Shown piece by piece: positions 1 through 5,099 of a stretch of DNA of 5,388 bases (positions are counted from its first letter, which is position 1; each line of letters starts with the position of its first letter). The notes under the pieces were generated by a model. The model saw only the letters and a program-made list of their open reading frames with translations, did no database searches and was not told the DNA's origin. The DNA is from Candidatus Poribacteria bacterium (lineage in GTDB: Bacteria; Poribacteria; DTPJ01; WJIO01). Location of the stretch: contig WJIO01000272.1 in assembly GCA_014730235.1 (NCBI GenBank), positions 1-5,388 of the forward strand, in the 5' to 3' direction. The position numbers were made by a program, and so were the translations under genes.

Positions 1-81
1 GGTCAGAATCCGACCGGCAAGATGGGCTGTGAACAGGGCTGATGTGTTCCTGATTATGCTGTTACTGCGCATACCCGGCAT
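1..81 (-). CDS. Wzx-like polysaccharide flippase, N-terminal fragment
   Basis: Only the first 27 codons are inside the window; the gene continues past the left edge. The visible residues include RSNSIIRNTSALFTAHLAGR, which resembles the amino terminus of Wzx/RfbX-type oligosaccharide flippases (polysaccharide biosynthesis protein, MOP superfamily), where a short polar start with an Asn-Thr pair leads into the first membrane helix. Members of that family move lipid-linked repeat units across the cytoplasmic membrane. I chose the ATG at 81-79 because AGAGAG lies 5 bases upstream (87-92); the ATG at 72-70, three codons later, has a poorer leader. The start overlaps the 3' end of the polymerase gene by 20 bases in another frame, which suggests translational coupling. 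The reading frame is open to the window edge and the Wzy neighbour fits a Wzx gene here. The call rests on a short fragment and on context. Confidence 0.6.
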   Translation of the reverse strand, partial: MPGMRSNSIIRNTSALFTAHLAGRILT

Positions 82-1525
82 ATTTTCTCTCTATTATATT
101 ACCCAAAGCAGCAAGAACACCTATTAATAACCAAAAAGGCACACCCACTACATCGGCCTGGATCATGTTGTTTACCAGAAAATGCACCATCAGCGAAAGT
201 TCCGCCGCCATAACGCCTATGATGACAGATTGGTAAAAGGATATATCTTCAGCTTCAGGGAAGCTTTCTTTAATATGGGATAATTTTTTTAGCAATCTGA
301 ATCCGTAAACAAAGAAGAATAATATAATGCACATCCAGGCTGAAAAACCTATAATACCGGTCTCTGCCAATGCCTGTAGATATTCGTTATGAGCACCCAT
401 TTTATACTGGCTTAGATGTAGACCAATAGCTGCTGGATTGTTCTTAAATGTAAAGGCGAACATACCGTAACCTGCACCCATTATAGGATGCCGCAGAAAC
501 ATCATGACAGCCGTACCCCATCGGATCAGACGTTCCTTATTTGTGCCGTAGCTGAGACTTGCAATGGTGCTGAGGCGGGATGTTACCATGCGAAAAACCG
601 GGGGGATACTCAACAGGAAAGCAAAAAGGGCAAAAGCACCGATCAATATTAGTATTTTCTTATGCTGAACGCCCTCTGTTTTCTGAAGAAATAAAAATCC
701 CACCGATGCTATAAATGAAACCCAGACCCCCCTTGAAAAGGACATACCTATACCGATGAAAAAGAACACCAGCAAAAAAGTCCATATAACCCGATCCCGT
801 ATCCCCCGATCAAACATATTCCGAGCCAGTATCACCAGCAGGAAAACTGCCACAAACGCGCCATAATGGGAATAGCTGGTAAAGGGTAACCCTTCATACG
901 CGCTGCTGTATCTCCACATACCTATACGGTCTATCAGGAATATTACCGTCCAGCCTACGGCAACAACAGCCGGAACAACAGAAAATACAAACAGGCGTTT
1001 AAGCCGCTGTTTGTCTGTTACCACATAAAAGGTTATAACGGCTATCATCATATAGGCTAAAGCTCTTATAGTTCCTTTAGCTGAAGAATATAAACGAGCG
1101 GAATTGACCAGGGAAAGACAAAGGCTTAAAGCATATAAAGCCAGGGGAAAGCGGAAGGGGAATTTAATCTCCAGGTTCTGTCTGCCGGTTACAAACAGCC
1201 TCACTATAAGGGCCAGGGACATCACAGCCAGCAGAGGTTCTGTTGGAACCTGCATCTCTGTTCCGTAGGCGAATATGAATCTGAAGGAAAAAGGTAAAAA
1301 TACAAGAAGGATGTAAAGGGCATAATCCAGGGCGGAGAAGCTGGTAAGGGTTAAAGCGCCCAGGAATGGTATTACAAGCCAGGGAGAGTCAGCATAAACA
1401 GCCAGGGCCACACCCAGCAAAATCATCCCGGAACATAACAAAACCCATCTGTAGATGGGTTTTGTTATGTTGGAAAGCGTTTGATCTCTAAAATGTAAAC
1501 TCCTCAAATTCAAAGCTTTCTTCAC
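62..1525 (-). CDS. Wzy/O-antigen ligase-like polysaccharide polymerase
   Basis: This 487-residue, strongly hydrophobic protein has about a dozen predicted membrane segments, the size and shape usual for the O-antigen ligase/polymerase family (Wzy_C type). Such proteins join lipid-linked glycan repeat units on the outer face of the membrane, or ligate the glycan to an acceptor. Family-type motifs are SFSRGVWVSF (262-271), RWGTAVMMFLRHPIMGAGYGMF around 335-356, and GAHNEYLQALAETGIIGF (377-394), the usual large-loop block with His379-Asn380-Glu381. The GTG start at 1525-1523 has only a weak purine-rich leader and overlaps the GT-C gene by 38 bases. A better Shine-Dalgarno-like GAGGAG lies at 1500-1505 but has no usable in-frame start after it. 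The first ATG is Met34 (1426-1424), but starting there would cut the first membrane helix (about residues 26-44). Codons 19-31 form a perfect hairpin, described separately. Polymerase versus ligase cannot be settled from sequence. Confidence 0.88.
   Translation of the reverse strand: MKKALNLRSLHFRDQTLSNITKPIYRWVLLCSGMILLGVALAVYADSPWLVIPFLGALTLTSFSALDYALYILLVFLPFSFRFIFAYGTEMQVPTEPLLAVMSLALIVRLFVTGRQNLEIKFPFRFPLALYALSLCLSLVNSARLYSSAKGTIRALAYMMIAVITFYVVTDKQRLKRLFVFSVVPAVVAVGWTVIFLIDRIGMWRYSSAYEGLPFTSYSHYGAFVAVFLLVILARNMFDRGIRDRVIWTFLLVFFFIGIGMSFSRGVWVSFIASVGFLFLQKTEGVQHKKILILIGAFALFAFLLSIPPVFRMVTSRLSTIASLSYGTNKERLIRWGTAVMMFLRHPIMGAGYGMFAFTFKNNPAAIGLHLSQYKMGAHNEYLQALAETGIIGFSAWMCIILFFFVYGFRLLKKLSHIKESFPEAEDISFYQSVIIGVMAAELSLMVHFLVNNMIQADVVGVPFWLLIGVLAALGNIIERKYAGYAQ
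1432..1471 (-). terminator. Terminator-like perfect 19-bp hairpin inside the polymerase gene
   Basis: On the plus strand the left arm AACATAACAAAACCCATCT (1432-1450) is the exact reverse complement of the right arm (1453-1471), with GT between them; in RNA this gives about 18 pairs closed by a four-base loop. The core CCCATCT/AGATGGG is followed on either strand by TTTTGTTATGTT, so it has the A-tract, GC stem and T-tract form of a bidirectional intrinsic terminator. On the transcribed strand it begins 16 bases after the GT-C stop codon, the normal place for a terminator. It also spans codons 19-31 (NITKPIYRWVLLC) of the polymerase frame, at the start of its first membrane helix. It could therefore terminate, attenuate, stabilise the upstream mRNA 3' end or slow translation. 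The structure is certain from the bases; its action is inferred. Confidence 0.55.
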
Positions 1526-3023
1526 TCTCTATTTCTGCTTTTGGCTTTTCATAAGCTGCATGCCACAGAGTTATAGAACGGTCTGAAACTCTGGCATATA
1601 CCGGGAATTCCTTTATCATTCGGCAGTTGGCATATACCCATTCCCTGAAACTGCGGTCTTTATCCAGCGACTTAAGAGATAGTTCATCCAGCATAAACCA
1701 TATATCCCGTCCTTCCCATTTCCACAGGCTTTCCAGATTTCCGATTCGGGATTTTACGTCCTCCAACTGCATGACTGGATTGCCAACAGAACTTGTGATG
1801 AGCGGTTTCTTCAAATAATACTGGGCAATTCGGGGCATGGATATTACAAGGGTATCACCGGCATTCATCCTGCTGTTTAACGTTTCGAAAGCCGCGCGCC
1901 ATTTAGGTCTGCCGCCGTTTTCCTTGTTGAAATACAGATAATCCTGGGCAAAAAAGGATACAAGGACAATAAGTATAACTGCAATGGACAGAATCCGCGA
2001 ACTTCTGGCCGTGCTTTCTGTAAGTTCTGACGCACAAAAAGCCGCCAGCATCAGAAAGGCCGGCATGGTAAAGAACAGGTAATAACCAGCAACGTTAAAA
2101 AATGGTGATATAATCAGAAGCGCGATAAATGGCACTACTGCATAGCAGATCATAAATAATCCGCCCCGGTGCATGTATGTAAATGAATGAATACCACCCA
2201 CAAAGGCAGCAACTGCCATGGGTATACTCAAACCATACAGCAAGGTAAAGACTATATAGAGGGGACTTCTACCCAATTGATTTAATCCCCAGCCTGAATA
2301 TATATAATTCCTTACAGAAGGTATCAAAAGGAATATTAACCCCAGAATAAAAGGCCCAAAGAAAATAATAAGATTCTTTCCATTCAAACCCCGGGGAATT
2401 CCTGCGGGCAATAACATTATTAATATTACATATACAACTAAGGCAGGGATTAATAATACTGTCTGGGTGTATGAGGCTATAGAAATAAGCATAGTAAGCA
2501 GCGACAGAAAAGTAAGCCATGAGTTGTCCCGTTCCAAAGCTAGGTAAAACAAAGACGCGGAAAGACCGGCAAACAAAAAGGCCAGGGAATAAGCCCTTAC
2601 ATTCTGAGACCAGAAGATATGCCAGGGATGAAAGACCAGAAAAAGACAGGCTATCGCGGCTACCTTTGAATTAAACATACGTCTGGCAGGCCAGTATAAA
2701 GCAGGAACACTGATAATCCCGATTATACAAGGACCCAGGCGCGCGCTCCATTCGCTTAAACCTATAGATCTGGTGACATAATTGACGATTATGTATACTA
2801 CAGGATTTACGTTAATCAGGGATGGAAATCGCTGAGCATCCTGAACGGTAAATATTTCATCAGCCCAGAAACTCCATTCACCCAGCTTCCACAATCTCAT
2901 CACAGCAGCCAGGGCCATGACAATAATCATTACAATAACGTCTTCAATAATACTTGCAGAATCACGTTCTGGTGCGAGACTGCCTCTAAGTGTTCCGTAG
3001 TCTGAATTTCTGGAGCGCGGCAT
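1488..3023 (-). CDS. GT-C family glycosyltransferase (PMT/GT39-like)
   Basis: This 511-residue membrane protein resembles the dolichyl-phosphate-mannose-protein mannosyltransferase/ArnT superfamily (PMT_2 type), which transfers a sugar from a polyprenyl-phosphate donor on the outer face of the membrane. The first helix (about 27-45) is followed by SFWADEIFT (51-59), where Asp55-Glu56 sits where GT-C enzymes carry the catalytic acidic motif. HPWHIFWSQNVRAYSLAFLF (132-151) matches the second conserved block, with Gln140 and Arg143. Some eight to ten more helices run to about 360, then a soluble C-terminal domain (about 365-490) begins with GGRPKWRAAFETLN and contains AGDTLVIS. The tail (about 491-511) is very acidic (EIESEESFEFEEF). 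The ATG at 3023-3021 is preceded by AAGGAGGG, so the start is well supported, although it overlaps the FemAB gene by 38 bases. Donor sugar and acceptor are unknown; a lipid-linked glycan is likelier than protein given the Wzy neighbour. Confidence 0.87.
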   Translation of the reverse strand: MPRSRNSDYGTLRGSLAPERDSASIIEDVIVMIIVMALAAVMRLWKLGEWSFWADEIFTVQDAQRFPSLINVNPVVYIIVNYVTRSIGLSEWSARLGPCIIGIISVPALYWPARRMFNSKVAAIACLFLVFHPWHIFWSQNVRAYSLAFLFAGLSASLFYLALERDNSWLTFLSLLTMLISIASYTQTVLLIPALVVYVILIMLLPAGIPRGLNGKNLIIFFGPFILGLIFLLIPSVRNYIYSGWGLNQLGRSPLYIVFTLLYGLSIPMAVAAFVGGIHSFTYMHRGGLFMICYAVVPFIALLIISPFFNVAGYYLFFTMPAFLMLAAFCASELTESTARSSRILSIAVILIVLVSFFAQDYLYFNKENGGRPKWRAAFETLNSRMNAGDTLVISMPRIAQYYLKKPLITSSVGNPVMQLEDVKSRIGNLESLWKWEGRDIWFMLDELSLKSLDKDRSFREWVYANCRMIKEFPVYARVSDRSITLWHAAYEKPKAEIESEESFEFEEFTF

Positions 3024-4053: not shown

Positions 4054-4061
4054 TGGTTACG

Positions 4062-4082
4062 GATCACTGATCACTGATCACT
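4062..4082. repeat. Three exact tandem copies of the heptamer GATCACT
   Basis: The plus strand holds GATCACT at 4062-4068, 4069-4075 and 4076-4082 with no mismatch. On the coding strand the array supplies the last three codons (Ser-Asp-Gln) and the TGA stop of the flippase-like gene and runs 9 bases into the gap. Because the unit is 7 bases long and contains TGA on both strands, an array of this kind puts stop codons in all frames. Heptameric short tandem repeats are known from cyanobacterial genomes; whether this one is part of a dispersed family here cannot be seen from one locus. Confidence 0.8.
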
Positions 4083-5099
4083 AAATTTAAGATAAATACC
4101 ACTGCCAATTCCTAAAACCGTACTGCAAATTATGAGTATAATATGCAGACCAAAACCCGATGTTATGGCATCCTGCTGTGAAATTCCCAGCACCTGCAGG
4201 GCCAATACCCAGGGAGCTTCTATTGTACCTATTCCAGCCGGGCCGTGAACAGGTATCATGGAAAATAACGAGCCGAAAAATTGGGCGAAGCTCAGGGGCC
4301 ATATACCTATGTTAATCTTCATGGATTTAACCAGATACCAGTATGTAAAAAGACGTAAAAATACTATGGATATAGAACATCCAACTACACCCAGTAACCT
4401 TATATCCAGAGGAGTATTTGCCAGTTCCTGAATTGTTTCTATAACTTTTGTTTTAGCCAGATTCAGGTATCGCCAGAAAAAATGTTCCCGGCTGGTGCGA
4501 CTGCGATTAAACCAGATCAAAAATATTATTAAAGCTGCTAACAGTATAAAGCCAATTATAAGAAAAATCAAATTACTTCTGGCAGAAATTATCAAAGAAC
4601 TGATTCTCTGGCTGAGTCCAGCATAAAAAGACGAAAGACCTTCCATCATAGGTTCTCGGAGATAAATACCTACAACAATCATGCCAAGAACCAGAACGCC
4701 TGCATCAGCTACACCACAGACCACCAATGAGGCGAAACTCCTGGGGCCGGAGGTGCTGGTTTGTTTTTTCAGCATGTATACATAGGATACTTCACCGGCT
4801 GGTCTTGGTAAAGCATTTACAATAAATAAATAAAATGAGACAATAGGGAAAAACTGCTTCATTTTAATCTTTTTGCCAAGTACCAGGTTTAACCTGAAAG
4901 CCTTTATATACTGGGCCAGGGCATACATCATAAATCCCAGCAAAAGGCTGTATAAAGGAATGTTACCCAAAGCCCTGGGGATGTCCATAGGGTCTATTCT
5001 GGAGAGAAGAAACCATGCTATAAAAAGACCAATAAATACGGAAAAAATAATACTGCGGATTTGCTTTCTTCTCTTCTTTTTTTGGTCTTCAGTTTTCAA
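4071..5099 (-). CDS. Flippase-like LPG-synthase-TM/UPF0104 family membrane protein
   Basis: This 342-residue protein has a Lys/Arg-rich cytoplasmic start (KKKRRKQ, 7-13) and about seven to eight membrane helices, the usual size for the stand-alone lysylphosphatidylglycerol-synthase transmembrane family. Motifs seen are NALPRPAGEVSYVYMLKK (95-112), matching the family P-R-GE block, and MIPVHGPAGIGTIEAPWVLA (281-300), matching the late P-GG-G-E block. In MprF this domain flips the lysyl-lipid, and related domains occur in AglD-type enzymes of archaeal N-glycosylation, so moving a lipid-phosphate-sugar is a reasonable guess. The start is TTG at 5099-5097, one base after the methyltransferase stop, with GGAAAG 7 bases upstream inside that gene; the first ATG (Met38) would remove the first helix. 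The carboxyl end is formed by the heptamer repeat, so its last residues may not be ancestral. Substrate unknown. Confidence 0.85.
   Translation of the reverse strand: MKTEDQKKKRRKQIRSIIFSVFIGLFIAWFLLSRIDPMDIPRALGNIPLYSLLLGFMMYALAQYIKAFRLNLVLGKKIKMKQFFPIVSFYLFIVNALPRPAGEVSYVYMLKKQTSTSGPRSFASLVVCGVADAGVLVLGMIVVGIYLREPMMEGLSSFYAGLSQRISSLIISARSNLIFLIIGFILLAALIIFLIWFNRSRTSREHFFWRYLNLAKTKVIETIQELANTPLDIRLLGVVGCSISIVFLRLFTYWYLVKSMKINIGIWPLSFAQFFGSLFSMIPVHGPAGIGTIEAPWVLALQVLGISQQDAITSGFGLHIILIICSTVLGIGSGIYLKFSDQ

Follow-up and report, generated by a model that had tools for sequence, protein, structure and literature searches.

A perfect 19-bp hairpin at the junction of a glycosyltransferase gene and a Wzy_C gene belongs to a class of one-off palindromes at gene ends in a Poribacteria genome

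Introduction

Intrinsic (Rho-independent) terminators, including bidirectional ones, combine a GC core with a T-rich 3′ side, lie mostly 0 to 30 nt past stop codons and often separate convergent gene pairs. A survey of 118,019 genomes found that the repeats behind bacterial stop codons mainly have a spacer of 4 to 5 nt (PMC13155455). Compensatory changes accumulate slowly one step at a time, and how long, perfect hairpins (terminators among them) come about has therefore long been a puzzle. Template-switch (quasipalindrome) mutation is a documented process by which perfect short-spacer repeats arise in place, in both coding and noncoding DNA (Monttinen and Loytynoja 2022, PMC8794818; Abraham and Hazkani-Covo 2021, PMC8604942). 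Template switching can create and maintain perfect RNA hairpins (PMC8794818), and inside yeast genes it makes imperfect inverted repeats perfect, at times inverting the spacer; in one yeast gene, a 5-bp repeat was turned into a perfect repeat of 16 bp (PMC8604942). Two further systems are REP and other palindromic extragenic repeat families, which are palindromic and intergenic, and the mitochondria of Nematomorpha, which carry perfect palindromes of up to 284 bp in protein genes whose products still look functional (PMC6649704).

Here, we describe a hairpin, and the genomic class to which it belongs, that shares features with each of these systems. Like intrinsic terminators, the palindromes have a GC core and a T-rich 3′ side and follow stop codons, but they consist of 14 to 30 perfect pairs with a near-zero spacer, unlike the usual bacterial 4 to 5 nt, and the hairpin analyzed here is also coding. 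The template-switch papers treat scattered events for which close relatives are available, whereas here there is a genome-wide excess behind stop codons and an ancestor for comparison is lacking. REP families share one sequence, while these palindromes are one-off, and in contrast to those of Nematomorpha they measure about 28 to 60 bp and occur mainly at the ends of bacterial genes. Neither template switching nor terminators are new in themselves; the density and perfection of the palindromes look new, and among the papers that our literature search listed, none relevant to terminators or palindromes in Poribacteria was present.

Results

The window, the whole stretch of 5,388 nucleotides that was analyzed, is one entire contig of the fragmented 5.53-Mb metagenome-assembled genome (MAG) of an uncultured Candidatus Poribacteria bacterium. 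The hairpin occupies positions 1432 to 1471 (minus strand), where two 19-nt arms (1432 to 1450 and 1453 to 1471) are 100% complementary and separated by 2 nt, 40 bases in total. Its GC core is CCCATCT/AGATGGG, flanked by outer arms that are A-rich on the 5′ side and T-rich on the 3′ side, and these outer arms are T-rich on both strands. On the transcribed strand, the T-rich tract GGGTTTTGTTATGTT directly follows the GC core; the core runs on into TTTTGTTATGTT, and the T-tract is paired within the outer stem rather than free. Only about 5e-7 inverted repeats with arms of at least 19 nt and a loop of at most 10 nt are expected by chance in 5,388 bases, and we rejected a chance origin. The preliminary description of this DNA, which had reported a perfect 19-bp hairpin with a 2-base center and T-tracts on both strands, far beyond chance, was thus borne out. 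It had also proposed folding the mRNA, and folding gave a strong stem on both strands, with a z score of −5.5 for the plus strand and −5.2 for the minus strand, which is the coding one, and no shuffled sequence equally stable. The minus-strand fold placed a separate stem upstream, and a non-exhaustive antiterminator search of this fold returned no alternative pairing that involved the hairpin. A simple terminator scan of the window did not report the site, because that scan requires a loop of 3 to 8 nt and an unpaired T-run outside the stem and the T-tract here is paired. An Rfam search gave no family match. The sequence is single-copy in its own genome at up to 3 mismatches, which rules out membership in a repeat family.

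The gene upstream of the hairpin encodes a GT-C type glycosyltransferase (1488 to 3023, minus strand; PMT_2, PF13231), and the downstream gene encodes a protein of the Wzy_C/O-antigen ligase family (62 to 1525, minus strand; PF04932, GTG start), a profile match that cannot tell polymerase from ligase. Along the minus strand, the stop codon of the glycosyltransferase gene (1490 to 1488) is followed by a spacer of exactly 16 nt (1487 to 1472) and then by the hairpin, which in the frame of the downstream gene makes up codons 19 to 31 and the first base of codon 32, so that both positions given in the preliminary description were correct. The GTG start at 1525 overlaps the glycosyltransferase gene by 38 nt and is preceded by no convincing ribosome-binding site. 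The glycosyltransferase frame overruns the matches of its relatives, which stop at about residues 486 to 495 of 511 and leave the last 16 to 24 or so residues beyond them; this C terminus (EKPKAEIESEESFEFEEFTF, window positions 1488 to 1545) is not part of the conserved domain and overlaps the start of wzy. The genes of the window are packed like a single operon. Elsewhere in the window, a short tandem GATCACT repeat (GGATCACTGATCACTGATCACT, 4061 to 4083) lies between two genes.

We then compared the site with its counterparts in other Poribacteria. The nearest searchable genome, G001, belongs to the same order only, with a protein identity of 58%. None of the 29 relatives' homologues examined has a palindrome with arms of at least 8 nt at the hairpin position, and the homologues have coding residues there too. 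Relatives that keep the residues but lack the repeat, which the preliminary description had named as speaking against its reading, therefore exist, solely at the distance of at most 58% protein identity. The alignment of wzy with its G001 homologue is gapless from residue 20 across the remaining hairpin codons (20 to 31), and at this distance the codons are too diverged for a comparison of ancestral arms. In the little data available, the residues of the 3′ arm, RWVLLC (RWLLII in one relative), at the start of the first membrane helix, look more conserved than those of the 5′ arm. In G001, the homologues of the glycosyltransferase gene and of wzy are found on separate contigs, and single-contig genomes such as G010 and G019 carry them at distances of hundreds of kilobases or more; the adjacency of the two genes therefore appears to be specific to the source lineage. 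The suggestion that the hairpin sets the ratio of Wzy to Wzx, and with it chain length, found no support, because the window holds no wzx, polymerase and ligase are inseparable here, and the relatives checked lack the hairpin and do not have the two genes as neighbors. Several Poribacteria Wzy_C homologues begin at or slightly before the position of the hairpin 5′ arm; since, in addition, the GTG lacks a convincing ribosome-binding site, the original wzy start codon may, speculatively, have been overwritten. The next in-frame ATG past the hairpin (1426 to 1424, codon 34) is an unlikely start on the basis of the alignment, because it would remove roughly one-half of the first membrane helix.

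To place the hairpin in its genomic setting, we surveyed 0.98 Mb of the source genome (0.95 Mb readable) and found dozens of perfect palindromes, their arms 14 to 36 nt long, some of which belong to repeat families. The main family taken out of the count was TGTCATTCCTGC..GCAGGAATGACA. A REP-like family, TGTCATTCCTGCTTCAAGCTTTTTGAAAAAGCTTGAAGCAGGAATGACA, occurs as a perfect palindrome about 25 times per Mb (for example, L069:13702-13752 and L110:4369-4419). After removal of repeat families, 48 one-off perfect palindromes with arms of at least 14 nt were left in 0.95 Mb, about fifty per million bases, against an expectation of 0.06. There were none in 339 kb of G001, three in 417 kb of wzy loci from other Poribacteria (0 to 13 per Mb across small samples) and one in 250 kb of Escherichia coli K-12. 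A small Bacteroidota sample contained two in 70 kb, and the source genome is therefore not to be called unique among bacteria. The spacer measured 0 to 2 nt in 36 of the 48.

Perfect stems outnumbered stems with a single mismatch in the source genome, by 47 to 12 at an arm length of 14 and by 39 to 6 at 16. A rerun with a different register choice gave 62 to 12 under weaker repeat-family filtering. In other Poribacteria, the corresponding figures were 3 perfect and 10 one-mismatch stems (arm 14) and 2 of each (arm 16).

Because amplified DNA can contain fold-back chimeras and the sequence comes from a fragmented metagenome assembly, an assembly or amplification artifact had to be considered. 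We regard this as extremely improbable: reading frames and homology continue correctly on either side of the palindromes, all lie at least 187 nt from sequence ends, their placement at 3′ ends and their T-tracts are biological, and other assemblies show no such excess. Contaminant contigs were rejected as a source because the surveyed contigs are uniform in base composition (GC 0.406, standard deviation 0.022) and the wzy, queA, cca and aroQ proteins best match the same-order relative. Nor does the hairpin behave like an inserted small mobile palindromic element of the REP, MITE or Rickettsia type. REP-like families, such as the one removed from the count, are present in the genome, but the hairpin is single-copy even at 3 mismatches, its codons align to the nearest homologue without a gap, an insertion of 40 bases would shift the frame unless it came with a target duplication, and the REP-like family shows none of the 3′-end preference of the one-off palindromes. 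With the multiple copies and the gap both missing, we rejected a mobile element as very unlikely.

The placement of the palindromes resembles that of terminators. Before minor families were removed, 54 palindromes were distributed over co-directional gaps (23), convergent gaps (18), divergent gaps (3), reading frames (7) and sequence edges (3). A stop codon lies within 100 nt of 36 of the 48 one-off palindromes, at a median distance of 16.5 nt. Arms of at least 14 nt were present at 35 of 570 gene 3′ ends, compared with 0 of 239 in G001 (p = 5e-6), and in 0 of 608 mid-gene samples. Across the class, T makes up 0.41 to 0.52 and A 0.24 to 0.32 of the bases at +12 to +24 from the palindrome center. 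The window hairpin, 16 nt past a stop codon and T-rich after its GC core, is a typical member, and its stable GC-containing stem, following T-rich tract and location downstream of a stop codon are the hallmarks of a terminator. These features of placement and composition uphold the earlier view of the hairpin as terminator-like, and because the whole class is placed and composed like intrinsic terminators, at least partial termination after the glycosyltransferase gene is most likely its role. Ribosomes translating across the hairpin from the upstream GTG may allow read-through, as the preliminary description suggested.

The operon-like packing of the window speaks against a strong terminator at this site. 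It would suit a 3′-end or intercistronic RNA hairpin that stabilizes or processes the upstream mRNA, or separates the translation of the two genes, and does not terminate transcription; several class members do sit between tightly packed co-directional genes, 10 to 26 nt ahead of the next start, some without a clear T-tract. However, the average T-enrichment of the outer 3′ arm and the many members between convergent genes suit termination better, and a purely non-terminating function seems to us quite unlikely.

Some palindromes fall within reading frames, which resemble queA, aroQ, cca and a prepilin peptidase gene. Perfect palindromes lie in aroQ (L069:1610-1639, in the conserved SYI..GVI region), queA (L090:10672-10708) and cca (L086:18393-18429), and in all three the palindromic codons align gap-free to solved homologues; the queA and aroQ matches in G001 are of equal length. 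The gapless alignments of queA, aroQ, cca and wzy indicate that bases were replaced in place. In the extended aroQ frame, the stretch ahead of the gene (approximately residues 2 to 46) has matches at some 45 other sites in the genome, indicating that a dispersed repeat reads through into the aroQ frame.

These observations bear on whether selection by itself could have produced the hairpin, as an intrinsic terminator or attenuator, ordinary but strong and bidirectional, that separates the glycosyltransferase gene from wzy and was assembled from point mutations and kept perfect. The position past the stop codon, the GC core with its T-rich arm and the enrichment of the class at 3′ ends fit such a history, and selection for very strong terminators might favor long stems as well. 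Yet termination needs neither 19-bp perfect stems nor complementary loop bases, perfect stems exceed one-mismatch stems, similar palindromes lie within the coding sequence of conserved housekeeping genes, in which a terminator would do harm, and the nearest relative has no such stems. We therefore consider point mutation and selection alone an unlikely explanation.

Discussion

The excess of perfect stems and their near-zero spacers point beyond ordinary selection for termination. We favor the reading that the window hairpin was written or perfected in place by template switching at a lineage-specific junction and probably serves as a partial terminator, and we judge the chances of this combined reading to be about even. 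The hairpin is a perfect inverted repeat with a short spacer and no net insertion (codons 20 to 31 against G001), as template switching would leave it. The switching step itself is inferred, since reading the ancestral arms would take a closer relative than any available; for the class as a whole, template switching is the most likely maker.

Under the proposed mechanism, the growing strand would briefly copy its own or the sister strand backwards, and such short-range switches would write or perfect many one-off palindromes across this Poribacteria lineage. At the site of the hairpin, bases would have been replaced in place, with no inserted element. Most survivors would be those just behind stop codons, where a GC core and a T-rich 3′ arm would make them intrinsic terminators. 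The window hairpin, 16 nt past the glycosyltransferase stop codon, would probably end part of the transcripts, and ribosomes that start wzy upstream, at the GTG at 1525, may carry other transcripts through it.

A broader proposal is that unusually active template switching makes near-zero-spacer palindromes throughout the genome and that these have been recruited as a main source of new terminators; we put it forward tentatively, as possible but rather doubtful. Searches for SbcCD, ExoVII and RecJ yielded no cause of high template-switch activity in the source lineage. Loss of SbcCD as the sole cause was rejected: SbcC was undetected and SbcD weak in the source genome, yet both are also missing from G001, which has none of the palindromes. 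Because ExoVII and RecJ are present in the source genome, their loss was rejected as well.

With so many one-off perfect palindromes, some of them in housekeeping genes without an insertion, the genome would allow a direct bacterial test of template switching as the answer to how long perfect hairpins arise. The same palindromes would connect mutation bias to a lineage's way of ending its genes. If active template switching has indeed been recruited for terminators, this would be a case of a mutation bias building gene ends.
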